From contig JANQGX010000016.1 of assembly GCA_028282885.1 (NCBI GenBank), positions 203,790-267,789 on the forward strand: 64,000 bases of DNA, in the 5' to 3' direction. Positions 19,974 through 34,834 of the stretch are shown in pieces. The notes under the pieces were generated by a model, which did not search any database, was not told where the DNA came from, and saw only the letters and a program-made list of their open reading frames with translations. A program made the translations under genes and the position numbers. The DNA comes from SAR324 cluster bacterium. GTDB taxonomy: Bacteria > SAR324 > XYD2-FULL-50-16. Each line of letters opens with the position of its first letter. The stretch's first letter is position 1.

Positions 19974-20005
19974 GCACATCGTACAGTTTAAAGTTTCGGA
20001 TATAG
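19974..20005. repeat. IS630 left terminal inverted repeat
   Basis: Matches the right end (21173-21204, reversed) at 21 of 32 positions, including ACA, GTA, TTAA, TTCG and ATAT blocks. Confidence 0.65.
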
Positions 20006-21132
20006 TTTTTTCAGCTTTATCCGTGCATCTGATGTGCGAAATTGCCAGTCTACTGCTGATTGGCGGTTGTTTCTATCATTGTTCCACGCAGATACTTTCG
20101 AACGAACTTTTTCAATGCAATCAATACGGCTGGAAAGACATTGCCCTTTTAAAACACTGAGTTCAATTTCTGCTATATTGAGCCAGCTCCCATGCTTTGG
20201 TGTGTAATGAATTTCAAGTCGATTAGCCAGATTTCGGGCTTTCTCTGGCGGAAATGCTTCATACAAGGATGCGATCTTATGCGTATTCAGATTATCCATT
20301 ACAAGCACGACTTTTTCCGCTTTAGGATATCTCTGCTCAAGCATCTCTTCGATAAAGTATGCCCAGTCAATCTTCGTGCGGCGCTCGGTGATTTTCACCT
20401 TACGCCTTCCGCCGAGAGGCTCCACTTCCATAAAAATATTCGCAACACCTTTGCGAACATATTCATCATCCATCAACACCGGATGGCCGGGAGCTGCCGG
20501 TATCGGTTCTTGAACGTCGCCAATCAGCTGCATACTCGACTCGTCCATACATACAACCGGAAATCGCCGGCTATAAGGACGTGCATAGACTTCCAGAATA
20601 TCCTCCATCGCCGCTACAAAGGACGCGTTATGGTCCGGTGGAATTTTCCAGTATCGGCTGAGGTGAGGCTTAAATTCATTTTTTTTAAGGCGTTGCAAAC
20701 AGTCATCGGCGAAACACTCGGTACAATATCCAGCTCGACCAGCTTTTCAGCCAGTAATCTGACTGTCCAGCGCTTACGTCCCTCCGGCGGATCCGTACAG
20801 GCTAAAGCGATCAGTTTCGCTTCAAAATCTCCACCAAACTGGATCTCACGCGGCGGTGTGGTCCGTTTTTTTCGTTCTATCGCATCTGGAAGACCTTCTT
20901 CGACAAATCTCTTTTTCAACTTTTCAAGGCTTCTAGTAGTAGTACCTAGCGCCTCCGCTACACTGGCAACAAACCATTTGGGACCGTACTCACCGGCATC
21001 CAATAGTAGTAATGCACGGGCATACAATACGGTTCGGGCTGCTCTTTTGCCTTTGGTAGAAATAGCTTCCAGATCTTTTCGTTCCTCTTTTGTAAGAGTG
21101 ACTCTGTATCTCGGTGCCATATTCTCCTCCAT
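19988..21132 (-). CDS. IS630-family transposase, two frames joined by -1 frameshift at A8
   Basis: First frame (21132-20614; real start probably the ATG at 21120) encodes helix-turn-helix domains: [20 protein letters not shown] and a second winged region. Second frame (20698-19988) encodes the DDE catalytic core: [10 protein letters not shown] (first Asp), [11 protein letters not shown] (second Asp) and [16 protein letters not shown] (Glu). The frames overlap at a run of eight A (plus strand T at 20679-20686). Slipping back one base after ALKK yields [10 protein letters not shown], a typical continuous IS630 sequence. So a programmed -1 frameshift is more likely than a mutation, and the full protein would be about 370 residues from the first drawn codon. 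All catalytic residues are present; the element may be active. Confidence 0.85.
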
Positions 21133-21224: not shown

Positions 21225-22973
21225 CTACTCAGACTCGGAACTCAATTCTTCCTCTTTTTTCTGGGAGATGATTTCACCGTTATTGTAGGCTCTCAGGAAA
21301 GCATTGATAACCTTAAGGTCGAACTGCTTGTTTTTGTTAGCTTTGAACTCCTCGTAAGCGATTTTGTCTGACAATCCTTGCCTGTATGGTCGGTTGGAAG
21401 TCATGGCATCCCATGTATCCGCCACGCAGATAATTCGGGCCAGCAAAGGAATATCCTTTCCTTTCAGACCATGGGGATACCCCTTTCCGTCAACTCGTTC
21501 GTGATGATGTCGCATACCGGGAATAGCGGGAGCCAATTGTTTCACATTTCTTAAAATCTCATAACCATAGCTGGTATGCATTTTCATTTTGTCAAACTCT
21601 TCATCGGTCAGTTTTCCCGGTTTTCTTAATATGGCATCATCAACGCCGATCTTGCCGATATCATGCAGAATAGCTGTTATCTCAAGTAATTCCAACTCTT
21701 CATCGCTTAGACCGAGATGACGCCCGGTTGCCAGGCTGAAATCTCGAACCCTGCGCGTATGGCCACCGGTGTAAGGATCCCGTTTTTCAATAGCAGCGGC
21801 CAACGCCTCGGCGGTTTCGAAAAACATCTCCTTTTGTTGCTCATATAAACGGGCATTTTCCAGTGCAATGGCAACCTGGTCTGAAAGACTTTCCAATAGT
21901 TTAAGATCGGAGCGGTCCGGCTTCCTGCCATCCAGTTTATTGATAGCCTGTAAAACGCCAATGACCTTGTTTTTGGCCTTGACAGGAACCGTGATCATAT
22001 TGTTCGTGATGAAATCCGATTTCTCGTCCACCCGCTTCGCCCAACGGGGATCCAGGGTGGTATCCGGAACCAGATCACTTTTGCCGTTCTCTGCTACCCA
22101 GCCGGCAACTCCTTCTCCCATTTTCAAGCGTACCTCTTTAACCGCGTCGCCTTTATCACCGAGTGCCACTTCAAAATAGAGCTCGTTTCGTTCCTCATCA
22201 ATCAGGTAGAGTGAACCGGTCTCGCACTCCAACAGCTCGACAACCGATTCCAAGGCTCTTTTTCGAACCGTTTTCTGATCGAGACTTGAGTTCAAAATCG
22301 CGGATAATCGAGCCAACTTGGTGAAATTATCGGCTCGATACCTGGCGGAATCCAACAATCTGGCATTCTCCAGCGCCAGAGCCACCTCAACGCTTAAACT
22401 TTCAAGCAGGGCAACATCGTTGTCGTTAAATAGTTCACCGCTGTTTTTATTGATAATCTCAATCACGCCCTTGGGTACACCTCGTATGCACAGGGGTACA
22501 GCCAGAAGGTTCACGGTTGAGTAATCCAGGGTTTTGGCTATTCTTGAACTCCAATTGCTGTCTTCCTGAACATTTTGGGAAATATAAGGCTGGTTTGTGG
22601 AGAGGGTTTTACCGGCAATTCCCTCCGTTTTAGAAATGGTTTGTCCCTCTAAGCCCGCCGAACTTGGCCCCTTAGCCACTTTGAACTCAAGATTTTGTTC
22701 CGATTCATCCAGCAACAGCAACGCTGCGGATTCTGTTTTGGTGGCAACCATGATCCAATCCATAACCCGATCCAGGAACTGTTTTAATTCAAAATGTTCG
22801 CTATTGATAAACTCGACCGCTTTGAACAGGCTAACCTGTCTGGATTTATCCTGGTATTTCAGCTTCAGTTCTTCATACTTTTGACTTAGTTCGGTAATCT
22901 CCTTTTTCATACGATCCAATGAGTATTCCGGACTCTCTTTTACCGACTTTTTCTTGCTTTGGCTCATGATCAT
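21225..22973 (-). CDS. GAF-GAF-HD-GYP protein (cyclic-di-GMP phosphodiesterase)
   Basis: 582 residues. A charged coiled coil (about 15-60) is followed by two GAF domains (about 60-210 and 225-370), each ending in the typical LE-LS-VA-ALENARL helix. The HD-GYP domain comes last (about 385-560): HDIGKIGVDD, HHHERVDGKGYP and ADTWDAMTSNRPYR. The HHxxxDGxGYP motif is intact, so hydrolysis of cyclic-di-GMP is expected. GAF domains may bind a small ligand or serve as dimer interfaces. There is no membrane segment, so the protein is cytoplasmic. The C-terminal end is Lys/Glu-rich. A CCCAATTGGG palindrome lies about 60 bp upstream (23035-23044). The IS630 element has inserted just after its stop, possibly removing the native terminator. 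Confidence 0.92.
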   Translation of the reverse strand: MIMSQSKKKSVKESPEYSLDRMKKEITELSQKYEELKLKYQDKSRQVSLFKAVEFINSEHFELKQFLDRVMDWIMVATKTESAALLLLDESEQNLEFKVAKGPSSAGLEGQTISKTEGIAGKTLSTNQPYISQNVQEDSNWSSRIAKTLDYSTVNLLAVPLCIRGVPKGVIEIINKNSGELFNDNDVALLESLSVEVALALENARLLDSARYRADNFTKLARLSAILNSSLDQKTVRKRALESVVELLECETGSLYLIDEERNELYFEVALGDKGDAVKEVRLKMGEGVAGWVAENGKSDLVPDTTLDPRWAKRVDEKSDFITNNMITVPVKAKNKVIGVLQAINKLDGRKPDRSDLKLLESLSDQVAIALENARLYEQQKEMFFETAEALAAAIEKRDPYTGGHTRRVRDFSLATGRHLGLSDEELELLEITAILHDIGKIGVDDAILRKPGKLTDEEFDKMKMHTSYGYEILRNVKQLAPAIPGMRHHHERVDGKGYPHGLKGKDIPLLARIICVADTWDAMTSNRPYRQGLSDKIAYEEFKANKNKQFDLKVINAFLRAYNNGEIISQKKEEELSSESE

Positions 22974-23197
22974 TACGCGGAACTAAGGTTAGTAAAAAAA
23001 GAATTGGACCACACAACTACTCCGACGCGGTTATCCCAATTGGGGATTTTCTAACGGGCACCCGGCGTTGGTGTACAATGCAAAATCTTTGCCCAAAATG
23101 ACACGGGAATGAGCACCCGACTGACCGGATGCTGTCGGAGATGTTGGCAATAAAAGATAGATAGACAGGGAAAACTGCGGATTGAGGTACTGGTCTC

Positions 23198-23836
23198 TTA
23201 AAAACCGAGATTCTGGTTGATCAAAACAACAGAGATATCTGTCAGCATGGGTTTTCGATGCAGGATGGTGGTGATTCTGCAAATTCTCTGCTCGGAATTG
23301 CAGTCGGCACAAATGCCGGTTTTAGCACAGGGAGTGTCCATGTTCAGACTTCTGGACCGCATAGGGGCGGCTATTTCATGAACCCGGTCCAATGCCCTGT
23401 CCAGATCCTTGGCCACCTTGTTCATTCCGGCCACTACAACCACTTTTTTGGGACCAAAGGACATGGCATTGGTTCTGTTGCCAACCCCATCCACATTGAC
23501 AATTTCCCCGGTCATGGCTATTGCATTGGCACTGCAGAGAAAGCAATCGGCCCGGGATTGCATTTTCCGGATATTTAAACTCTCCTCCGCGGATATTCCC
23601 TCCTGCCAATGATCATAAACCGTCTTGCCCATTTGCAGTAAAGACTCCGGCAGGCCCAGCCTCCTTGTTGTATCAGAACCCGCAAAACCAAAGCTCTCAT
23701 ACTCGCTGATCATTTCAATTATTGCTCCTGCCGCGGTTTCCAAATCCGGAAGGAGCCGGGCATCAAATCCGTGCTTCTGCAGATTTTTAACCGTTTTTTC
23801 CCCCTTTTTCTCCCACAACCAATTGCTGAAATCCAT
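23198..23836 (-). CDS. LUD-domain (LutC/YkgG-like) protein
   Basis: 212 residues of the LUD / DUF162 family. SEYESFGFAGSDTTRRLGLP, a central SANAIAMTGEIVNVDGVGNR and a GPKKVVVVAGMNKV stretch match the family core. The C-terminal CAKTGICADCNSEQRIC supplies clustered cysteines seen in the stand-alone DUF162 branch. LutC-type members take part in lactate oxidation with LutA and LutB, but those partners are absent here, so a lactate role is not supported. AAGGAG precedes the ATG at good spacing. It is 224 bp upstream of the HD-GYP gene and not obviously in operon with it. Confidence 0.82.
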   Translation of the reverse strand: MDFSNWLWEKKGEKTVKNLQKHGFDARLLPDLETAAGAIIEMISEYESFGFAGSDTTRRLGLPESLLQMGKTVYDHWQEGISAEESLNIRKMQSRADCFLCSANAIAMTGEIVNVDGVGNRTNAMSFGPKKVVVVAGMNKVAKDLDRALDRVHEIAAPMRSRSLNMDTPCAKTGICADCNSEQRICRITTILHRKPMLTDISVVLINQNLGF

Positions 23837-24034
23837 ACGATTACTCCTTTATATTACTGGAAAACTCGTCGCAGTGATGACCACTCAATCTCTCATTTTC
23901 TAAACCACGTCTCTTCCGGTCGTTTTAAAATCACTGGGGATCTTAGTCAAGTTTTATGCCAGTAAACCTGGAAATTAAGCCGGGATTCAAGTTTAGTAGC
24001 TATCAGTCGTGGGAAACGCTCCAATCATTTCGAA

Positions 24035-24226
24035 TTAGAGACATTGTGGCGGAATTTGCCAGGCGAACTCACAAGGCCAGACGAAATCGATGACTTCCAG
24101 TTGTTCGGTTACCACCTTGGTCTCAACCACCTTCATATCATATTTGATCGGCACCGACGCCTGGAGTGTGGTTAAACCGATAAATAAAGCAGCAGAAACA
24201 AGCAATCCGAGGGTTCTTTTTATCAT
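24035..24226 (-). CDS. small secreted protein, 63 aa
   Basis: MIKRTLGLLVSAALFIGLTT followed by LQASVP is a clear Sec signal, cleaved probably after about residue 24. The mature part is only about 39 residues and carries two Cys in its aromatic tail (VWPCEFAW ... PPQC), which could form a disulfide in the periplasm. AGGAG lies before the ATG. No known family recognised. It is the next minus-strand gene after the LRR lipoprotein but 600 bp away, so likely separate. Confidence 0.6.
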   Translation of the reverse strand: MIKRTLGLLVSAALFIGLTTLQASVPIKYDMKVVETKVVTEQLEVIDFVWPCEFAWQIPPQCL

Positions 24227-24824
24227 GATGATCTCCTATTTATTCTTATTTAACGATAATTTAGGCTGCAGCCGTTATTGCTAATTTTATTTAAATTTAC
24301 CTTCGCTTTAAGATATCTTGTCTGTTAAGACGACAGAACTGGCCTTTTTTTCTTTATCGTCAAAGATAAATCAAACAAGATACTGAAATCTATTGAGATA
24401 AAAAACGCAAATCAAAAAAAATGATTTGTCTTTGGAGATCGATAAGTCAAAAGAGAGAGATTATACTGAAGAGATCAATAGTTTTGATTGATTCAAAGAC
24501 TGTTTTAGGCCCAGGCAAAAAAGTATTACCGGCAGTTTACGGAATATGCTACTTAGCTGTGAAAAACGATTGATGTTGAAATGCATTAAATTAGCGTCAA
24601 GTGGAATACATCGTTTCGATTTGAATGAGCTTCTTTATTCAGCGTCATGAATTTCACCGTAACGGGTGCGGGACTCCGAGTGAAAATCACTTTTTCTGCC
24701 TTCCAGTGTCGATTTGACATGATATCGGCTCAAACCAAAAAATTGTAAGATTTGAACTGAGTTTCTGTTCCGGATAGAATAATTCGGTATCGACATGAGG
24801 CAAACCATTAAAGCCTGGCAGTGA
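24227..24824. other. 598-bp AT-rich non-coding region
   Basis: No credible gene on either strand. It contains a perfect 7-bp inverted repeat CAAATCA (24408-24414) / TGATTTG (24422-24428) around seven A, about 185 bp upstream of the small secreted protein gene. This may be an operator. The AT-rich left half probably holds that gene's promoter, but no clear -35/-10 pair stands out. Confidence 0.35.
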
Positions 24825-25772
24825 TTATTGGCAAGAATCGGGATGAACCACCTTTCCGGGGAGGGCCGCTTCCAATGTGTTCAATTGACTGCAAGGTATA
24901 TTGTTGTTCCCTGATAGATTGATCTGATAACCGGTGTCGGCACTGATATTGGTGAGAGTGACCAGGCAGTCCACACCACTGGATATGGCATTATCATCTA
25001 GATGAATCGCTTGCAAGTTACTAAGGGTCCTTAGGGAACAGACATCTTCGATGGAATTCTGGTTTAAGATTAAATAGATCATCCCTGTCAGGCCAGCGAG
25101 TGATTCGATATTGGAAATACTGTTCTCATGCAAATATAGCTGGTTGAGCCTGGAAAGACCCGCCAGTGGCGTCAGATCTGATACTGAATTTCTGCCAAGA
25201 TTAATACTGACAAGGCCGGTAAGATTTGCCAAAGCACTAATATCCGAAATGGAGTTATCATTGATGGTCAGTGACGTCAGGGACTTCAGATCTTGCAAAA
25301 CAGATATATCATCAATGTCATTATTGTACAGAAACAGTTCAGCGAGTTGGATATGTGATGCAAGAGGGGTAATATCCGTAATTTGATTATACTGCAAACC
25401 TAACCGGCTGAGATTACTGATCTGGCTCAAAGGGGTGATATCCGTGATCAGGTTATCTCGCAACGACAGATTGAGCAGTTCGCTAAAGACTTCGATCCCC
25501 TCCAGCGAAGTGATATATTGGCTTTCACAGGAGAGGGTCTGCAGCTCGAATACATAGGTGGCATTGTATTGATCAATACAGTTTTGAAGCATGGCATCTG
25601 CAACTTCAACATCCTCAAGCTTCGTCCTTCCCCCCAGGGTCTTGTTGTCTGCATCAGCGGCAATATCAGCGTTATCATAGGAACCACAGGCAGCCAGAAA
25701 AAGGAAAACAAACAACCACCAGCGGATATTTTTCAATGCGGATACCAGTTTACAGAGTATTACCAACGCCAT
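24825..25772 (-). CDS. leucine-rich-repeat lipoprotein
   Basis: 315 residues. A hydrophobic lead ends in LFVFLFLAAC (lipobox, Cys near 29), so the protein is probably anchored in the outer or inner membrane facing the periplasm or surface. From about residue 85 to 270 there are eight or nine internalin-type LRR units of 21-22 residues with the pattern L-x-x-L-x-L-x-x-N-x-I-x-D-I-x-x-L. A Cys-containing cap lies at each end (NCIDQY ... LSCESQ and NIPCSQ ... DSCQ). LRR solenoids bind proteins. The start overlaps the end of the caspase-like gene by 13 bp, so the two are translationally linked and probably work together; a sensing or substrate-binding role is inference. Confidence 0.87.
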   Translation of the reverse strand: MALVILCKLVSALKNIRWWLFVFLFLAACGSYDNADIAADADNKTLGGRTKLEDVEVADAMLQNCIDQYNATYVFELQTLSCESQYITSLEGIEVFSELLNLSLRDNLITDITPLSQISNLSRLGLQYNQITDITPLASHIQLAELFLYNNDIDDISVLQDLKSLTSLTINDNSISDISALANLTGLVSINLGRNSVSDLTPLAGLSRLNQLYLHENSISNIESLAGLTGMIYLILNQNSIEDVCSLRTLSNLQAIHLDDNAISSGVDCLVTLTNISADTGYQINLSGNNNIPCSQLNTLEAALPGKVVHPDSCQ

Positions 25773-28315
25773 TGAGCTGAAATTCCGATTGCAATGGTTT
25801 GAGTGTTGGGGGAAAAGGCGGTTTCGGGTTTGAGGTCAAACTCCGGTTGGTCATAGATGCCTTCATCATAGGTCTCAAAAGCCACCAGGTAGATTTCCCA
25901 TATCAGTGCTGCTGCGGTAAATATATCCAGCAGCTCGTAATTCCGTTTATGGGTTTTCATCTTCTCCTGGTTGACATAGTACTCTTGCCTGATTTCGATA
26001 AAATCTTCCAGACTGGTTGCATTGCGATACTTCTGTTCCAGCAGCTCATTCTCATCAGCCAGTTGACGATAATTCCTGGCTTCTTCCCTGGCTTGCCAGC
26101 CGGCTAACAGCGCTGTAACGCCCGCAACGATATGCCAGGTCCAATCCTGGGGTTTGGCCGGGTTAAAATAGTACCCCTCTTCCAGTGTAGAGACATCCCA
26201 GGTTGTTTGAAATTGTCCGGTTTTTTCAGCAACTTCCTTTCTTACTTCCTGAAACAGATCCTGGATATCAAGGTTGGTTTCCGGAAGATGTCTTAAGAAC
26301 GAGCTGGTAAATACCCCGTTATTGCCATCCATTCCATCCCAGGCGAGCTTTCCGGGTGATGTCGCATAAGCGATGAAGGTTCTCGGGGGTGCCATCATTT
26401 CGGCAAATCCCTGGAATCTACTGCCCAATCCGGGTAGAGGATTATCCCTGCAGGCATCCAGGATAACGATATTTTGTACGTTCCGCGCTTCCGCCATTCT
26501 ATCCAATACGCGATTCAGGCTGACCGCCATATTTCGGATTTTTTCGTCCTGATCGACCTCAGCCCTCGGGCTGCTTGTTTGCCAGTTCATATTGATCGGC
26601 AGAACGAAATTCTCACCCTTCACCTGCATGCCGTGGCCGGAATAGTAAAAGAGACCGGTTGTTTCAGGGGTTAGACGGTGTCCAAAATCCTCTATTATCC
26701 TCAGGAGTTCGAAGCGATTGAGATCCAGCCCCAGAATGACCTCAAATCCCAGATTTTCCAATGATTTTTTGACAGCCGTCGCATCATTCAATGGATTTAA
26801 TAAGGGAGCCTCGGCATAGGCACCATTGCCAATGACAAGGGCCAGTCTCTGTTTTTCAAGAGTGCCCGCAGCCTGATCGCGATCATATCCCAACTCGGAT
26901 CTGACAAGCCTGGAGTAGGAGGTATCTGTTTCGGTTTTCAAAAAGGGTGACCAGGATTTGGAGACGGTTTTCCTGCAATCCTCACCCGCTTTCAGGCCGG
27001 CGGTATCATTGCAGTCAAGGCGTTCGCTGGTAATTCTGGCCTTGTTATAGCGTGAAAAGCGAAACGAGTAGCCGGTTGGTTCCTCCCTGATCCTCCCTAG
27101 AAAATCCAGGGCAGTTTCGAAATTGTTCTGGGGATCGCTGAGATAAAGCGCCACGGCAATATTGTTCAGTATTTCCGGCTTGGAAGGACTTTTCTTCAAG
27201 GTCTCTTTCATCAGTGATACAGCCTCACCGTATTTTTCGGCCGAGATATAAGCAGAAGCCAGATTGATTCTGGCCGGGATATAGCTTGAATCCCGTTCCA
27301 TGGCCTGTCTCAGGTAGTATTCTGCTTTATCCATCAACTCCCTGTGGCGATTCCGATAGTTACGGGTTTTGCCCAGTTCATCCGGAACCAGGTTGAAAGC
27401 CAGTGTTTCGGTATCAACAGAAGTCGAAAGCATAAACCGGAAAAGTCCGCTGGCATCGTATTTAGACTGCTCCCGGAGTGCCATCTGATAGTAGGTGAGT
27501 CCGATATTGTTATAGACCTCCCGGCCGGGAAAATAGGTAGCAAACTGCTGGAAACCCTCCAGGGCCTGCCGGTAGTCTTTTTCTTGATAAAATCGAACCC
27601 CGTTGGCAAAAAGAGGGAGTTTTTCGATTATGGGCCGGAGACTATTGGTTAATACCGCTTTTCTTTTCTGAGGTGCATAGTGACTTTCGGATTCAACTTG
27701 ACGACGCACTCTTTTCAAGTACTCTAAGAAAAAATTGGATTCGTCTATCAAATGCTCGGGTTCAAATCCTGACATGGTCATCAGGATCAAACCGGAATAA
27801 TCGGCTCCTGCTTCAACTTTTTTACGGAAGTCGGGATCTGATTGAACTGTTCCGGTAGTCCCTGCCTTTGTCCCTCCATGGTCCAGATAAGTAAAATGGT
27901 GATCGATCAGATGCGATAATTCATGTGCCAGGATAAAGGCCAAGCGAGCATTACCTTTGGGAGTCGGATCTGATGACCCTTCGAAACAGAGATCCAGAAT
28001 TGACTCTACCAGAATGATGCTGCCATCCGGGAGACACATTGCCCATCCAATCCAGTTGGCGGCAGAAGAGGGAACAATGATCAACCGCACGTTGTGATCC
28101 GTCCCAAATTCGCTTGCTTCGATCAGTCGATTAAATATCTTGTGAGCTTGACCGGCCAGGGGGTTATCCTGCGGACTGGAACTGCCGAATTCCTGGATAT
28201 AATACTCCCCCAAACCCTTATCATATACTGCGGCAATCAGGCAGAATGGAATACTCAAAAGGACAATCAGGAGACCGGCGATCACCTGCATCCGTTTAAA
28301 TGGGTAAGAAACCAT
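25760..28315 (-). CDS. exported M48-type metalloprotease / TPR / caspase (C14) fusion
   Basis: 851 residues. An N-terminal hydrophobic segment (about 8-30) acts as signal or anchor, placing the rest outside the cytoplasm. M48-like zinc peptidase at about 40-215: HELSH with His131, Glu132 and His135, then VEAGADYSG...GFEP. The usual E-A-D third-ligand motif is altered here to G-A-D with a Glu three residues before. TPR-like helices occupy about 220-420. The caspase domain spans about 486-735, opening LALVIGNGAY; the catalytic His is in YYSGHGMQ (His561) and the Cys in LDACRDNP (Cys622). The C-terminal ~110 residues hold a hydrophobic stretch, a coiled coil, another hydrophobic stretch and a beta end (IAIGISAQWRW). 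Two different proteases in one chain is unusual. It is the third gene of the sigma operon, overlapping the LRR gene. Confidence 0.87.
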   Translation of the reverse strand: MVSYPFKRMQVIAGLLIVLLSIPFCLIAAVYDKGLGEYYIQEFGSSSPQDNPLAGQAHKIFNRLIEASEFGTDHNVRLIIVPSSAANWIGWAMCLPDGSIILVESILDLCFEGSSDPTPKGNARLAFILAHELSHLIDHHFTYLDHGGTKAGTTGTVQSDPDFRKKVEAGADYSGLILMTMSGFEPEHLIDESNFFLEYLKRVRRQVESESHYAPQKRKAVLTNSLRPIIEKLPLFANGVRFYQEKDYRQALEGFQQFATYFPGREVYNNIGLTYYQMALREQSKYDASGLFRFMLSTSVDTETLAFNLVPDELGKTRNYRNRHRELMDKAEYYLRQAMERDSSYIPARINLASAYISAEKYGEAVSLMKETLKKSPSKPEILNNIAVALYLSDPQNNFETALDFLGRIREEPTGYSFRFSRYNKARITSERLDCNDTAGLKAGEDCRKTVSKSWSPFLKTETDTSYSRLVRSELGYDRDQAAGTLEKQRLALVIGNGAYAEAPLLNPLNDATAVKKSLENLGFEVILGLDLNRFELLRIIEDFGHRLTPETTGLFYYSGHGMQVKGENFVLPINMNWQTSSPRAEVDQDEKIRNMAVSLNRVLDRMAEARNVQNIVILDACRDNPLPGLGSRFQGFAEMMAPPRTFIAYATSPGKLAWDGMDGNNGVFTSSFLRHLPETNLDIQDLFQEVRKEVAEKTGQFQTTWDVSTLEEGYYFNPAKPQDWTWHIVAGVTALLAGWQAREEARNYRQLADENELLEQKYRNATSLEDFIEIRQEYYVNQEKMKTHKRNYELLDIFTAAALIWEIYLVAFETYDEGIYDQPEFDLKPETAFSPNTQTIAIGISAQWRW

Positions 28316-28396
28316 CAGATCAGGTTCCGAATAGCATTAGAATGTTTGACAATGTTACCCGAATGAGAGTCCGAAACTTGTGATAGACAAGGTTAC

Positions 28397-29329
28397 TCAG
28401 GACAAAATTAGTTGAATTTCTGTTGTTATTTTATATATGATTTCGTGTCGTTTTTCAACTTTATTATCACTGATTATCTTTCCTATCTTAGCTAATCTTC
28501 GAGTAATGCCGGGAGGAAGGTCCTTGAATTCCGCATGACTGAGGAGGGCATCCAGGTTTTCTCTTTTAATCAGGTCAGACCTTTTATTAGAGGAGAGTGC
28601 CAACGCTGATTTTGTGAATAAACCCAATTTGTAAAAATAACTGCTTCCTGACTTTAAATAGTATTCTTCTATATTTTCAACAGCATCCAGAGAGGTACGA
28701 TTATTGAGTTCGATTGGAAGTTCCGGATATTCGGTTAATAGGTCTTTATTTGTCAAAACCAGTTCGTTCATTTTTTTCAAAACCACTTCAAACTGATTTC
28801 TGTTTGACAGCAGCGTGCTAAGCCTCGCATCCACCACCAGGATACCTGTCATAAACGCAACTTGTTGCTCGGTTTTGCCGCCGCTGAATCCCAAAATCAT
28901 TGTTTCATTTGATTTCTCCGGGGCAAAACTGCTGATGATGACCGTGTCTTTACTAGGGGACAAACCGGCTAAAAGACGCTCAGATCTCCATTCCGACTCA
29001 GTCTTGAACTGAAAAAGCAGCATAAGGGAAGCAGCGACAGGAATCGCAATTCCCGCTGCCCTGTATTTTCCAATTCTACCGATGGATTTCAACCATCTCC
29101 GATAGAGCGAACTGTTAGCAGGCATCGGCTGAAAGTTCTCAAGTTCCCTGACAACCTCAATGGAGTCCACCACCAGTTGATAGCAGTCTCTGCACTGGTG
29201 AAGGTGAGATAGGACCAGTGCCCTGTCTTTTTTTGCCAACTGCCCGTCAATAAAAGCCGCAATCGTGTTATCATCGAGACATTGTTTCCGAACTTCCGAA
29301 CTCATTTTGGCTTTTAGTTTTTGTTTCAT
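28397..29329 (-). CDS. membrane anti-sigma factor with ZAS zinc finger
   Basis: 310 residues. The N-terminal cytoplasmic part carries a zinc-finger anti-sigma (zf-HC2/ZAS) motif: CLDDNTIAAFIDGQL followed by HLHQCRDC (H-x3-C-x2-C). A single membrane helix lies near 92-112 (AAGIAIPVAASLMLLFQF). About 200 residues follow that should face the periplasm. In this family the cytoplasmic domain holds an ECF sigma factor until the protein is cut. It follows the sigma-like gene by 67 bp and precedes the exported protease-caspase by 81 bp, the expected order for a sigma/anti-sigma pair plus a regulator. Start at 29329 is tentative; ATG at 29305 is possible and neither has a strong ribosome site. Confidence 0.82.
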   Translation of the reverse strand: MKQKLKAKMSSEVRKQCLDDNTIAAFIDGQLAKKDRALVLSHLHQCRDCYQLVVDSIEVVRELENFQPMPANSSLYRRWLKSIGRIGKYRAAGIAIPVAASLMLLFQFKTESEWRSERLLAGLSPSKDTVIISSFAPEKSNETMILGFSGGKTEQQVAFMTGILVVDARLSTLLSNRNQFEVVLKKMNELVLTNKDLLTEYPELPIELNNRTSLDAVENIEEYYLKSGSSYFYKLGLFTKSALALSSNKRSDLIKRENLDALLSHAEFKDLPPGITRRLAKIGKIISDNKVEKRHEIIYKITTEIQLILS

Positions 29330-29396
29330 AAATGTGTTTTATCTAATTTTTACGATATTCGTTTAAAGGGACACGATGCTGTTATTGATTTCGTTC

Positions 29397-30497
29397 TTAA
29401 TAGTAGACGACAGGGTTTATATTTTTTTCCATTTTTTTTACGATATATTGATAACAGAGTTGAATAATCATCTCCCTGTCCTCTTTCGCAATTTGCAGGT
29501 TTTCAATCCGGGTTTTGAGTTCATTCGTGAATCGGGATATTCGTTTGTCAATCCTTTTCCAGGCCTGGCTTGAGACCTTTCTTTTCCCCGTTATCGATTT
29601 CATGGGCTCTGTCGGTTTGCTCATGGTTCTGGCAATTTCCGAAATGTGCAAACCATCAACCAGGTACATGGACACTATCATCAGATCCGTGGCTGTTTGT
29701 TCCGCTAATAATGAATCTATCTCGTTCTCCAGATGCGACTGCACTTCATCCTTCAAGAGGCTGGACAAGGGATTAACCGTGGAATTATCTTCGACCTGAT
29801 CCAGTACCTCATCACCCAGTTGATCACGGGAAGAAATGTTGCTTGACTTTCGGGAAGGTATTCTACCCTGCAGCTTTAGGTCCCAATCTTCCAGCATTGT
29901 CATTTCCAGCCTGACCCGGGAAACTTGCATCACTTTTTGCAAATAGGATTTATCCCTGTTAGTCAAGAGCTCATCCATTTTATTGAAAAACTCGTTTTTT
30001 GGATACAGGGTCTCTTTGAGATGGAGTTCAAGCTTATCTGAAACACGGTTGGGCAGGTGCTTTTTTATTTTCAAAAACTCGGCAGCAGAAAGACGGTATA
30101 ACAATGTGAACTCGGGATTGGTCATGATAAACTGCGATGCTTCGCTAAAAGTGCGACCATCCCGATAAATCAGGGTTTCCAGCATCATGGCAACCTTCCC
30201 CAAGTGTTTCGCTATGGCAGAGTTTTCCCATCTTCCCCAGTGCTTTTTGATGAAATCGATGGCCAGTCGATTAATAACAACAGACAAATATGACTTCCAG
30301 GTACTGTTGGTAGTCCCCTGGTAATCCCTCAGTCTTTTACCATCGTTAATCAGAAGCTTCTCATAAATGTATCCCTTGAAATCATCGGACATTTCACTGG
30401 ATATGCTTTTGTTGCGGCAGACTGATGCTATCACCAGGTCAATTATTTCTTTTTCTTGCTCAAGGGTTTTTTTAATATCCATAAAACAGGCGATCAT
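29397..30497 (-). CDS. divergent ECF-type RNA polymerase sigma factor with large insert
   Basis: 366 residues, about twice the usual ECF length. Region 2 is recognisable near 40-90 (DFKGYIYEKLL, then WKSYLSVVINRLAIDFIKKH, matching the conserved helix that melts the -10). Region 4 lies near 265-335 (DLMIVSMYLVDGLHISEIAR, the helix-turn-helix that reads the -35). Between them are about 170 residues with no recognised domain, rich in charged and Ser residues. The pairing with a ZAS anti-sigma gene supports the call. It could instead be a sigma-like DNA-binding protein that no longer directs polymerase. Starts at 30497 or 30482; a palindrome-rich leader lies just upstream, perhaps for autoregulation. 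Confidence 0.75.
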   Translation of the reverse strand: MIACFMDIKKTLEQEKEIIDLVIASVCRNKSISSEMSDDFKGYIYEKLLINDGKRLRDYQGTTNSTWKSYLSVVINRLAIDFIKKHWGRWENSAIAKHLGKVAMMLETLIYRDGRTFSEASQFIMTNPEFTLLYRLSAAEFLKIKKHLPNRVSDKLELHLKETLYPKNEFFNKMDELLTNRDKSYLQKVMQVSRVRLEMTMLEDWDLKLQGRIPSRKSSNISSRDQLGDEVLDQVEDNSTVNPLSSLLKDEVQSHLENEIDSLLAEQTATDLMIVSMYLVDGLHISEIARTMSKPTEPMKSITGKRKVSSQAWKRIDKRISRFTNELKTRIENLQIAKEDREMIIQLCYQYIVKKMEKNINPVVYY

Positions 30498-30508
30498 GGG
30501 AAAGTCAA

Positions 30509-30544
30509 CCCCCGGGGGAACTTAACTTTCGGAAATCTCCGAAA
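30509..30544 (-). promoter_or_regulatory. paired palindromes in the leader of the sigma operon
   Basis: Two perfect dyads lie 12-47 bp before the sigma-like start: CCCCCGGGGG and TTTCGGA-N4-TCCGAAA. In RNA they would form two adjacent hairpins in the leader; in DNA the second is a good protein-binding dyad. Confidence 0.45.
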
Positions 30545-30608
30545 CAGGTTTTCAGCGGTTTACCTTTTTTCAAAGATCCATTGGTCAGGGGAATCAGAAG
30601 GATATTGT

Positions 30609-30623
30609 GTACTATTATAGTAC
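30609..30623 (-). promoter_or_regulatory. dyad GTACTA-TTA-TAGTAC
   Basis: A perfect 6-bp inverted repeat about 112 bp upstream of the sigma-like gene, at a distance suitable for an operator. Confidence 0.35.
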
Positions 30624-31239
30624 CCTTTATCCGATAATCAAGCAATCATTAGAACGTCCACCAACCGTTAGTCTGTTTCCTTTTTTACCAAAGGGAATGA
30701 GGAGAAACAGCTATTCAGTGACTTGGATGAGCTAAGATTGGATTTGATCTCTTTGGTTTTTACTCATATAAACAAAAATCAACATACGAAAATAGGACAG
30801 CCGTTTCATCATGTCAAGGAGGTCATGATCATTGACCGGACAAAAAAAGTCTTCAGCATACACTAAAGCCAGCTCTTTGCCTCCATTATCAGCGCTTTGA
30901 CCGTAAAGCATGGTGTTCCCGGATAAAGAGCCAACCGGATGAAATCTTGACTGAAAGAAAATAATTATGAAACAGATCAAAGACAAAAAATTCATTGATG
31001 TATAGTTCTACATTACGGTCAAAAAGATGATTTCGATATCAGGCGTCAAATCCAGTCTTTGAACTTGATAGTGGGGAAAATGAAGCGGGCTGTGATAGAT
31101 GGCTGTAAAGTTTAACCAATTGAGCACCGGCAGTAAAGAAAGTACTGAGTAAAGAATGATTCGGTAGTTTTATAGTGGAAAAACGTTTAAGCCAATGGTA
31201 CACCTGTTGAATAGAAAATTGAATCGATTGGATTGATTA

Positions 31240-33855
31240 ATGGCCTATAAAAACAACACATATTATCAGATCTCTTCATTCGGGGATGAAGCCGTACAGG
31301 CATCGGAAGCACTGTTAAAGTCTTACCCTTTGACCCGCGTCTGCCTGGATATTCTTGGCAAACAGTTAGTTAGGAAACTCGAATTCGGCTTTTTCGAACC
31401 CCATCATCAGATCATTGTTCAAGGAGAACAGGGTAAGGATCTGTTTCTGATCTGCAATCATCTGGCTGACGTTATCGTTTTTGATCGTCTGATCATACAA
31501 ATGGAAGCCCCGGCACTCTTTGGCGACAAGGCTATTATCGACAGAAATTCCACCCGAAATGCCACTATTGCCATAGCAGAAGGGGATTTGTCACTTGTGA
31601 TTAAAATTCCCATGGGGTATTTCATCCGGGACTTTAAACAGTCGGATGCCGATGATGCCAGTTTTGTTCAGGAAACACGAATCTATTACAACCTGTTTCT
31701 TGAAATTCAAAGCCGTCTTTTCAAATACAGTCAAATTCAGAAGAAACTCTGGGATGAGGTCAATAAGCAATTAAAATTACTTAACATTCAATTAGTCACC
31801 AGCCAACTTATCAAAAAGGAAGAGAAGGAATGGGAACCAAAGGTATGGCAGGTAATTCGCCAATATCTGAAATCGGTCCATAGTTTTGCCTGGCCGAGCA
31901 ATGTCCAATACAGCACAGGTGCTTTAATGGACATTCTCAATTCGGTTCTTGAGAGCCGATTCCCCAAAACCGAGTTCAAGGGGAACTATCAGACTTATCT
32001 GTACCAGAAGAAATTAATTTGGAATCGTTGGTTGGACACCTTGAGCGAATTGCTGATCAAGGTTCTGCCTAACGAACAGCTACCTATCAGTATCGGCGAA
32101 GTCCTGCTGTTCAATCCCAGGATTTACCAGATGCGTATGCACACCCTCCTGGTTTCGATCCAGAGAAAATTCATGTTCAAAAAGGTACAACCGCGCAAGG
32201 AGGTGTTTGATTCCGACAAGTTGGTAGCTAAAAATTTCTTCAGCAAGAAGATCTCGGACAACGAATTTGACCTGGATAGCTACCTGAAAACAGTCAAGCA
32301 GATGTTTATCCTGCGGAATCCGAACCGGGTGCTTGCCCAGGTTGCCCAGCAAACAGCGCAGTTGACGGCAACCTGTGAAAACGAGTTCAACGAATCGGTT
32401 TCCAAAATGCAGCACTTTTTGGACAAGGTCAAAAAGTTGTCCCTGGTTAAAAAGGAACTGGTGCCGGAAGAGGAAAAGCTGCAGAAACAGATTCTGGAAA
32501 GAACGACCGTTATTAACCAGGGCTTCAGCACCTTCCATTCCAAAATCGTCGGACATACCTATACCTATGCAGGAGTTATCCGGTTCACCGATACCAAGGT
32601 CCCCCTGTTGGAAAACCTGATCAAGGCCACCGGCTCCGACGCTTTGAAAAAGAACCTGGTTAAAGCTTTTAACGGTCTGATCGACCTTCTCGCCCTGAAG
32701 CCTGAAGGGTACAATCACAATGAGGTCCAGCAGATATTTTATATCTGCCACGGATCCTCGGAAGATGCCATTCCCGAAAGTGAACTTGCTTCCAATTACT
32801 GGATTCCGGTTTCAGAAGGCATTCGCCTGTTAAAAGGAGATAAAGACTTCGGTGTTATCAAACCGGGATTTCTGGTTGGGGGCGACGCCTGGAAACAGAG
32901 CAGCGAAATCGAAGATCAGGCTGATCAGGATGAGTGGCATTTGAAAATACCGAAAAAGAAGGCGGATCAGCCCCTGGATACCTTCTTCCTTCTTTTTGTC
33001 ATACCCAAGAAGAGTATCCCCTGGCTTATTTCTGATGTTCCTTCCGCCGGAGAGTTACAAAATCAGATTGTTCCCCTGATGCAGTCGCTGGTGACCCGGA
33101 TCCTGGAAAACATCGCGGTGGTTTCTGAAATCAGGGACTCCCTGATGAAGCGATTCAGCCAGATTGTGGAAGTCATTGTTACGGAAAAAAAGGTGCGGGA
33201 GTTTGAAAATAACCGAAACAGGATTCCCCAGGCCAAATACAACCGAATCCTAAAGCTGATTTACGAAACTCTTGGCATTGCCCTGGAAAAGAGACAATCC
33301 GTTAGTTCAGAAGCTTTCTCCAAGCAGCTATATAACGAGATCGTCAAACAGACCAAGAAGGACTTCCCCAACCTGACAGCAGAAGAACAGGGAAATAAAG
33401 CGTATACACTCTGGCGATTCATGCAGAGTGAAATCGTCTCCAAAATATACCTGGAGGAGTCGTCGGATATTATAAAACTCGATGTACCCAAATCCACCTT
33501 TTTGCAGATCAGAGAAGATATTGAAGCCTTTTTCAAGGAGAAAGACCTCGAACTTCCCAAGGGAGCTTGTAAAATGCGGGAAGAGAGCGGTGAAATCAAT
33601 ATGAGCAAAATGATTCAGACGGAATCCAAGCTCAAAAGCAGGGAGTATCTGGAAATCTTAAAATCAGTTCTTGATATTGTGGAGCAACGCTTTGTACACT
33701 TAGTAGGAGAAGCCACAGGGTATAAATCCAGGCTGGACCAAATCAGCGCGATCCAAACTGAATTTGATGTTAATGAAATACAATCCAAATTCATTCTGGA
33801 TGCCATTGCCAAACTGCAAAAGGCCCTGCAAAATGAAAGCCCTGAAACCGGATAA
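31240..33855 (+). CDS. 871-aa protein with N-terminal cyclic-nucleotide-binding-like domain
   Basis: Only the start resembles something known. Residues about 45-135 (FFEPHHQIIVQGEQGKDLFL, then APALFGDKAIIDRNSTRNAT) follow the cNMP-binding beta-roll pattern, including I-x-x-G-E-x-x-x-D-L-F and a FGD-A-x-x-x-x-x-R-x-A-T loop. The key phosphate-binding Arg is not secure. The remaining ~730 residues are predicted largely helical with coiled-coil stretches (about 375-420 and 610-720) and no membrane segment; I do not recognise them. There is no strong ribosome site. It stands divergent to the sigma operon and is followed 49 bp later (from the preferred ATG) by another unknown gene. The pair may form a cytoplasmic signalling complex (inference). 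Confidence 0.75.
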   Translation: MAYKNNTYYQISSFGDEAVQASEALLKSYPLTRVCLDILGKQLVRKLEFGFFEPHHQIIVQGEQGKDLFLICNHLADVIVFDRLIIQMEAPALFGDKAIIDRNSTRNATIAIAEGDLSLVIKIPMGYFIRDFKQSDADDASFVQETRIYYNLFLEIQSRLFKYSQIQKKLWDEVNKQLKLLNIQLVTSQLIKKEEKEWEPKVWQVIRQYLKSVHSFAWPSNVQYSTGALMDILNSVLESRFPKTEFKGNYQTYLYQKKLIWNRWLDTLSELLIKVLPNEQLPISIGEVLLFNPRIYQMRMHTLLVSIQRKFMFKKVQPRKEVFDSDKLVAKNFFSKKISDNEFDLDSYLKTVKQMFILRNPNRVLAQVAQQTAQLTATCENEFNESVSKMQHFLDKVKKLSLVKKELVPEEEKLQKQILERTTVINQGFSTFHSKIVGHTYTYAGVIRFTDTKVPLLENLIKATGSDALKKNLVKAFNGLIDLLALKPEGYNHNEVQQIFYICHGSSEDAIPESELASNYWIPVSEGIRLLKGDKDFGVIKPGFLVGGDAWKQSSEIEDQADQDEWHLKIPKKKADQPLDTFFLLFVIPKKSIPWLISDVPSAGELQNQIVPLMQSLVTRILENIAVVSEIRDSLMKRFSQIVEVIVTEKKVREFENNRNRIPQAKYNRILKLIYETLGIALEKRQSVSSEAFSKQLYNEIVKQTKKDFPNLTAEEQGNKAYTLWRFMQSEIVSKIYLEESSDIIKLDVPKSTFLQIREDIEAFFKEKDLELPKGACKMREESGEINMSKMIQTESKLKSREYLEILKSVLDIVEQRFVHLVGEATGYKSRLDQISAIQTEFDVNEIQSKFILDAIAKLQKALQNESPETG

Positions 33856-33904
33856 AATAACAGGATCATACCCCGATTATAGAATCTAAGTGCACCAGGC
33901 TGGG

Positions 33905-34834
33905 ATGAAAGAAAAGAATAGTTCACCGGAAGACACCCGCCCCGAAAAAAAGAGAAAACTCAAAATCCAACCCACCTCCTCAGTTCTCCTGACCCCGGGA
34001 TCGTCCCGAAGAAAAAATGCCTGGGGAAGGCTGCGCGACAGCGGTAGTAACAGGGGAATGACCCAAGGGCAAATCAGCGATTATCTTGAATCCCAAATGA
34101 AAAAAAACTACGTCAATGTACGTAAGGATGGCGCCCTGACCTTTGACAAAGTCGACAAATATCTGGAATACCTCGCCAGAACCGCCTCGCAAACCCTGGT
34201 TCAGGCGGAAATGGACCGCAAGTCCGTTACCCGGTTTTCGGAAGAAACAAAACCGTTACTCGTCGATATCGGATCAAAATCATCTTTAACCGACTCCGAT
34301 GTCAAACAACACACCCGTCTGATTACCGAAAAAGCCAATAACCAGGTACAGGGGATGATATCTTCCGCCCAAACCGATCCATCCCCACCAGCAAAAACCG
34401 AGGAGAAACCAGTTGTACCGCCGGCACCCAATGTGGCAGAAAAACCTGGCAAACCTGAAATTGCGGAAGAGGATGGCTTCCTGGACAGCGAGATTATTCC
34501 GGTTGGCTTTGAAAAGGGCGCTCCTAGAGTAAGCGTGCGTGATTTTCTGGAACTACCGATATCGACAAAAGATGACGGTCCATCCGATGAAGATTGGTTT
34601 GCCGCTCATCTGAAATATCTGGAAATGGCTGCCAGGAAAGCCTTCTTATCAAAAAAAGATCTGGATGAAGTAAAACAGCAGTTGGATCAGTTTCCGAAAA
34701 TCAAATACAAGTCCCATTTCAATATCTTTCCGGATCGTGAATATGAAGATACCCAGATGATGATTGTTTACAGCCGCTGGCGAAATGGCACCATTCGCCA
34801 GTTGCGGAAAGATAACGGAGTAGAGGAGGATTGA
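33905..34834 (+). CDS. unknown protein with disordered Pro/Lys-rich linker, partner of the 871-aa protein
   Basis: About 309 residues from the ATG at 33905; a GTG at 33890 is a possible alternative. The first 45 residues are basic and probably disordered. Residues about 50-160 form a helical region (GQISDYLESQMKKNY). A Pro/Glu/Lys linker spans about 160-190. The C-terminal ~125 residues look folded (DEDWFAAHLKYLEMAARKAF, then IFPDREYEDTQMM). No family recognised. It follows the 871-aa gene closely on the same strand, so a shared operon is likely. Confidence 0.65.
   Translation: MKEKNSSPEDTRPEKKRKLKIQPTSSVLLTPGSSRRKNAWGRLRDSGSNRGMTQGQISDYLESQMKKNYVNVRKDGALTFDKVDKYLEYLARTASQTLVQAEMDRKSVTRFSEETKPLLVDIGSKSSLTDSDVKQHTRLITEKANNQVQGMISSAQTDPSPPAKTEEKPVVPPAPNVAEKPGKPEIAEEDGFLDSEIIPVGFEKGAPRVSVRDFLELPISTKDDGPSDEDWFAAHLKYLEMAARKAFLSKKDLDEVKQQLDQFPKIKYKSHFNIFPDREYEDTQMMIVYSRWRNGTIRQLRKDNGVEED

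Follow-up and report, generated by a model that had tools for sequence, protein, structure and literature searches.

Introduction

Sigma factors released by a protease are a standard device of bacterial envelope sensing, in which the gene for the cutting protease usually lies elsewhere and has to be identified by genetics. MucD of Pseudomonas is a protease of the HtrA type. In the algT(U)-mucABCD operon (PMC6264809) the genes of a sigma factor and an anti-sigma factor stand together with those of two negative regulators, MucB and MucD. Here we analyse a 64,000-nucleotide stretch of DNA from a SAR324 cluster bacterium (the window; GenBank GCA_028282885.1, contig JANQGX010000016.1, our G000:C65:203790-267789 within a 7.8-Mb genome), in which a four-gene operon (24825..30497) encodes a divergent sigma factor of the extracytoplasmic function (ECF) type, a zinc-binding anti-sigma (ZAS) factor, a probably exported protein joining an M48 metalloprotease, tetratricopeptide repeats (TPRs) and a caspase domain, and a leucine-rich repeat (LRR) lipoprotein. 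A preliminary description of this DNA had contrasted it with known pathways on the ground that their proteases are encoded elsewhere, a contrast contradicted by the place of mucD: ECF switches with a membrane anti-sigma factor and a protease gene in the operon were already known. What appears to be new is the triad of sigma factor, anti-sigma factor and M48-TPR protein, and the M48-caspase fusion. Literature searches found no account of either, although a listing in the ECF re-classification is still possible.

The likeness to algT-mucABCD lies in the assembly of sigma factor, anti-sigma factor and negative regulators in one operon, and a paralogous triad with an HtrA-like gene on another contig of the same genome (C80) is much like it; the difference is that the third gene here encodes an M48-TPR protein, fused in the window to a caspase. 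The MucB/RseB family was not among the matches for the window proteins scanned or for the C80 paralogue. With RseA-DegS-RseP (PMC8103513) the locus shares a membrane anti-sigma factor, and an M50 match is found in the window's genome, but here the candidate proteases lie within the operon and are of the M48 and caspase types, and the anti-sigma factor has a zinc finger, with a periplasmic domain that is predicted to be helical. In Craspase (Csx29, Csx30, CASP-sigma; PMC10028731) an ECF-like sigma factor has its inhibitor cleaved by a protease of the caspase fold from the same locus; there it is an RNA-guided TPR-CHAT protease acting with Cas7-11, whereas here a probably exported C14 domain is fused to M48 and accompanied by a membrane ZAS anti-sigma factor. 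Identity with Craspase/CASP was rejected, the window protease being C14 and not CHAT, and a scan of eight proteins from 21225 to 34834 matched no CRISPR family. The ECF54 group likewise has caspase-fold (CHAT) proteases near an ECF sigma factor, with carboxypeptidase and subtilase neighbours, but is described (PMC8999054) as lacking an anti-sigma factor. In Sinorhizobium the extracytoplasmic M48 protease JspA and its lipoprotein partner LppA lower the level of the periplasmic negative regulator ExoR (PMC10659215), but the system targeted is a two-component one and JspA combines M48 with LysM domains.

Architecture of the operon

The four genes lie on the minus strand, as do all features of the operon given below, in the order sigma factor (29397..30497), anti-sigma factor (28397..29329), protease (25760..28315) and LRR lipoprotein (24825..25772), with 67 bp between the first two, 81 bp between the second and third and a 13-bp overlap of the last two. 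This layout is borne out by the open reading frames (ORFs), all four being found where the preliminary description had placed them, and Pfam and NCBIfam concur with its domain labels, the weak points being a sigma factor below its curated cut-off and a zinc finger that barely passes. Our favoured reading, held with about as much belief as doubt, is that the operon is an envelope-stress switch in which the sigma factor would be released from the ZAS anti-sigma factor by a protease-triggered, presumed cleavage.

The 310-residue anti-sigma factor conforms to its first portrayal as a single-pass ZAS protein with a periplasmic part of some 200 residues. The residues of its zinc-finger motif (C-x24-HxxxCxxC, residues 17-49, 29183..29281) are invariant in 10/10 aligned homologues, a pattern search finds the motif in 47/57, and zf-HC2 is matched narrowly (23.0 bits, cut-off 22.2). 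Hydropathy predicts one transmembrane segment at residues 91-109 (29003..29059), and the 201 residues beyond it (110-310, 28400..29002) are predicted to be periplasmic. A weaker second hydrophobic stretch (157-175) is missing in the two sister proteins and the paralogue, and in the model it forms one of the helices of the C-terminal fold, for which reasons the single-pass label is kept. By blocks, the predicted local distance difference test score (pLDDT) of the structure model is lowest at residues 131-150 (48-60) and stands at 83-97 from 151 onward, the C-terminal domain beyond the low-confidence stretch being predicted all-helical. Model residues 13-90 align with RsiW, RslA and ChrR (VIA-align). 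Foldseek gave 0 matches to the model at E<=0.001, and VIA-align on the helical domain gave only low-Z helical rows, so we make no claim for the fold of this domain.

The third gene had been described as encoding an exported protein with two protease domains, and both domains of the 851-residue product exceed their Pfam cut-offs: M48 (PF01435, about residues 55-230, 27626..28153) with 25.7 bits against 20.3, and the C14 caspase (PF00656, residues 490-712, 26180..26848) with 119.9 bits against 21.4 (E 1.7e-34). An N-terminal hydrophobic segment, the feature from which export was judged, stands before both domains; export is probable and a periplasmic location of both is predicted. The HExxH signature (here HELSH, residues 131-135, 27911..27925) and a downstream glutamate are present in 11/11 aligned relatives, and HELSH, the glutamate and the caspase catalytic residues, histidine 561 (SGHG, 26633..26635) and cysteine 622 (LDACR, 26450..26452), are all intact in 7/7 full-length fusions, the window's included. 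Among 22 protein matches seven, again counting the window's own, span at least 99 % of the fusion; two of the other six equal the sister proteins in length (853 and 859 residues), so that four are new.

Two regions of this protein were absent from the preliminary description, namely a TPR region (about residues 230-430, 27026..27628; PF14559 above cut-off, TPR folds in VIA-align) and, at the C-terminus, a hydrophobic module some 128 residues long (723-851, 25763..26149) that ends in W-x-W. TPR matches fill the VIA-align rows for the 851-residue model. By fold the closest solved structure to the M48-TPR model is BepA (top Foldseek matches PDB 6ait and 6sar), which is also among the profile matches and likewise has an M48 domain followed by TPRs, but the window protein falls far short of the curated BepA family (NF052400, 22 bits against a cut-off of 570). 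The top PDB match of the caspase domain is the MALT1 paracaspase. The C-terminal module is common to two other proteins of the same genome, so that it occurs on the caspase, on a FecR-like protein (L025:6087-7553; PF04773 slightly under cut-off) and alone, as a 192-residue protein (L026:6725-7303); it ends W-x-W or W-x-F, and W-x-W closes 7/7 M48-caspase fusions.

The 366-residue sigma factor is probably a divergent, ECF-type member of the sigma-70 family, assigned from a TIGR02937 match below cut-off, a homologue profile and its paralogue: the profile, built from 10 homologues, matches the PDB chains of SigW, RpoE and FliA at E ~0.001, and the C80 paralogue reaches 63.1 bits against TIGR02937, above the cut-off of 42.9. 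The LRR lipoprotein (315 residues) is what it had been called, with seven LRR_4 stretches (E 4.2e-24) and a lipobox, LAAC (residues 26-29, 25686..25697); both sister proteins also have a lipobox.

Conservation of the core triad

The four genes adjoin in 3/3 searched genomes of the genus (the window's, G001 and G002), both sisters retaining the fused caspase and the 13-bp protease/LRR overlap, and the sigma/anti-sigma/M48-TPR triad occurs in several phyla, so that the co-occurrence is confirmed. On contig C80 the paralogous triad comprises a 300-residue sigma factor, a 336-residue zinc-finger protein (zf-HC2 18.5 bits, under the 22.2 cut-off) and a 457-residue M48-TPR protein without caspase, followed downstream by an HtrA-like protease (387 residues), a protein that we take to be LPP20-like and a DUF4384 protein; aligned identity between window and C80 is 27 % for the sigma factors, 22 % for the anti-sigma factors and 33 % for M48-TPR. 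Because C80 carries an HtrA-like gene and not a caspase, the gene content suggests a core of sigma factor, anti-sigma factor and M48-TPR protein with an exchangeable second protease. Divergent to the C80 triad lies a caspase-domain gene (L022:12889-15861, plus strand), presumably with WD40 repeats.

Triads are also present in G009, a genome of the same family in which the caspase fusion is absent, and in G015, G023 and G027, with the M48 gene divergent from the sigma pair in G015 and G023. Variants seen among them are caspases encoded by genes of their own, an HtrA-like gene, and a DUF4384 domain fused to the M48 protein. The M48 match of G042 is weaker and its neighbours are unmatched by the seeds; its four zinc ligands nonetheless align.

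Eleven M48-TPR sequences, used for a wider search of a genome collection, retrieved 79 loci, some sharing a genome and none from the window's, of which 76 had a called M48-TPR ORF; L120, L124 and L128 had none and were left out. Their taxa include SAR324, Desulfobacterales, Nitrospirae, Nitrospinota, Gammaproteobacteria, Aminicenantes, Acidobacteria, Planctomycetota, Magnetococcales and Oligosphaera, and the cultured Desulfamplus magnetovallimortis (L123) is one carrier of the triad. Within three genes of M48 an anti-sigma homologue is found in 62/76 loci and both partners in 41/76. Sigma-like genes make up 45/387 of the genes within three of M48 and 0/352 of those at five or more, and anti-sigma-like genes 64/387 and 0/352. 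As the partner profiles had been trained on such neighbours, curated libraries were also queried: 35/57 second-upstream genes match the general sigma model (E<=0.001) and 33/62 first-upstream genes match zf-HC2 (E<=0.01).

In Nitrospirota and Nitrospinota loci (L076, L078, L098, L104, L105 and L132) the single sigma gene is replaced by one of 203-210 residues, upstream of the anti-sigma homologue or the M48 gene, whose sigma match is weak at most (best TIGR02985, E 4.4e-5, L078; region 4, E 0.0016, L076). At L076, L078, L098 and L104 an ORF of 126-228 residues precedes it, and none of these genes or preceding ORFs that were scanned rose above any curated cut-off. Perhaps they are the two halves of a divided sigma factor.

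Caspase-fold proteases (C14 or CHAT) gather near the core: with core genes excluded they account for 28/353 genes within three of it and 5/284 at five or more (Fisher p=0.00045), and C14 alone, from a profile seeded in the window's genome only, for 16/353 and 2/284 (p=0.003). Fused or within three genes, such a protease is present at 30/76 loci, and among far genes at 4/55 loci that have any; directly adjacent caspase-fold genes number 11 on the same strand and six on the opposite strand. By Pfam, six genes neighbouring M48 encode large TPR-CHAT proteins. A less strict screen for caspases, made before, was dropped because it had counted M48 proteins through their TPRs. More tentatively than the switch itself, we suggest that the window may represent a widespread class, in which each ZAS anti-sigma factor would have an exported M48-TPR protease as its dedicated partner and caspase-fold proteases, whether fused or encoded next door, would have been repeatedly recruited as periplasmic site-1 proteases that turn the sigma factor on. 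Oligosphaera ethanolica has a single ORF of 1673 residues (L110:6671-11692) that joins trypsin and M48 domains to a kinase-like stretch (27.0 bits, under the 31.7 cut-off), an anti-sigma-type gene coming after it.

Loci without a sigma factor

At L067, L068 and L109 an HtrA-like gene stands upstream of an anti-sigma homologue of about 255 residues, which is followed by M48-TPR. These homologues lack the zinc finger and look secreted, and profiles found no sigma gene in the three loci. L068 was assigned to the secreted type by hand, its start being likely internal and a 272-residue protein being recorded for the same organism (P0001), and L067 and L068, which are 56 % identical, are not independent. 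The comparison covers the 60/76 loci with a complete anti-sigma ORF, the rest having no such ORF or one truncated where the contig stops: the cytoplasmic N-terminus is present in 42/42 where a sigma gene was found and in 15/18 where it was not, leaving 3/18 without. A profile built from the secreted form, with a length filter, returned 99 related proteins, matches that accordingly lean to that form; HxxxCxxC occurs in the first 140 residues of 0/99, and 81/99 have a hydrophobic segment starting by residue 40.

Since sigma-free loci lose the zinc finger yet keep HtrA-like and M48 neighbours, the simplest reading of these sequences is that the zinc finger belongs with the sigma factor and the periplasmic domain with the proteases. 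The same loss supports the pairing of sigma and anti-sigma factor that had been proposed for the window.

Neighbouring genes

Each of the three genus members has a pair of genes divergent to the operon (in the window 31240-34834, plus strand, for proteins of 871 and 314 residues; in the relatives L046:25-3572, with one extra gene between, and L047:1334-4929), the larger with only a weak match to cyclic nucleotide monophosphate (cNMP)-binding domains. Another caspase-domain ORF (880 residues) lies at 53509-56151 (plus strand), and PF00656 has 10 matches in the window's genome in total. A few kb downstream of the operon two overlapping ORFs (19988-21132, minus strand) are presumably pieces of an IS630-type transposase.

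Proposed switch and alternatives

In the switch that we favour, the membrane ZAS domain would hold the divergent sigma factor at the inner membrane, while the periplasmic domain would dock on the probably exported M48-TPR-caspase protein and read the state of its M48-TPR part. Envelope damage would turn the protease on, or in this genus a ligand of the LRR lipoprotein, which would then act as sensor or adaptor. The M48 or the caspase site would cut after the membrane segment and ahead of the helical domain (residues 110-153, a span that includes the stretch of lowest model confidence), whereupon an M50 (RseP-type) protease would complete the cleavage and set the sigma factor free. The window's genome has a single M50 match, yet M50 is matched in 14/14 control genomes too.

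Several observations weigh against this proposal. Chief among them, the secreted sigma-free forms suit an adaptor of the protease no less than a substrate: they show a role apart from sigma release, and the periplasmic domain may therefore serve the protease as adaptor or inhibitor instead of being its target. The window sigma factor itself matches TIGR02937 at E 4.7e-5 with 23.1 bits, under the 42.9 cut-off. The distribution is sporadic, a two-sequence M48 profile having matches (E<=1e-12) in 8/192 related genomes, the window's own included, and in only 1/7 same-family genomes of other genera (G009 among G003-G009); 14/76 loci are without an anti-sigma match near the M48 gene and 35/76, partly from contig ends, miss one or both partners. 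CHAT genes alone are not significantly enriched (12/353 near, 3/284 far, p=0.066), and nor are trypsin-like genes (4/353 and 2/284, p=0.70). The six seeds of the CHAT profile all adjoin an M48 gene, which biases it toward near matches. The caspase part of the 851-residue model is of low confidence. No promoter element common to the 260 bp upstream of the sigma gene is evident in the three genus members, which leaves sigma autoregulation unsupported either way. Finally, the LRR lipoprotein was found only in the window's genus and is hence accessory, not a core recognition protein. The earlier idea that a likely cutter and a likely recognition protein share the operon needs changing: the conserved protease is the M48-TPR part, the caspase is one of several interchangeable partners (C14, CHAT and HtrA-like) and the recognition role shrinks to that of an accessory.

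The alternative that survives best, although we think it rather improbable, is that the proteases are outputs: the sigma factor would autoregulate the operon, M48-TPR-caspase and LRR proteins would carry out envelope repair or quality control, and the anti-sigma factor would be cut by proteases encoded elsewhere. ECF regulators often adjoin their targets, the M48-TPR part is similar to BepA, a protease of outer-membrane quality control, and the accessory proteases differ between loci as outputs would, but this leaves unexplained why the periplasmic half stays with M48-TPR and HtrA-like genes where no sigma match is found. Unlikely in our view is that the periplasmic domain is a regulatory subunit of M48-TPR (inhibitor, adaptor or cargo holder) and that binding or displacement frees the sigma factor with no cut by M48 or caspase. 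The secreted-looking stand-alone versions, in the three loci with HtrA-like and M48 neighbours and in the 99 related proteins, are consistent with such a subunit, as is the predicted all-helical domain; the intact HExxH of all aligned relatives and the two intact active sites of every full-length fusion argue otherwise, as does the fact that proteolysis often brings about release where a membrane anti-sigma factor has a periplasmic domain. Very improbable is a device for death or defence, in which the LRR protein would read a signal, the caspase would then kill the cell or cleave foreign proteins, and the sigma factor would set the dose. Bacterial systems of immunity and cell death do include caspase-fold proteases, and LRR sensors recall recognition proteins. 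Against this, both protease domains come after a hydrophobic N-terminal segment, the anti-sigma partner is of the envelope type, and the core triad is found elsewhere with neither the caspase fusion nor an LRR gene.

The conserved triad points directly to a likely protease partner of the anti-sigma factor, and does so in several phyla of which few members have been studied; its natural variants (caspase, CHAT, HtrA-like and sigma-free) separate the roles of the parts. If the wider class suggested above is real, caspases would control transcription from outside the cytoplasm. The switch would also give the caspase-type proteases of bacteria, most of which have no known function, a testable role in transcription control.
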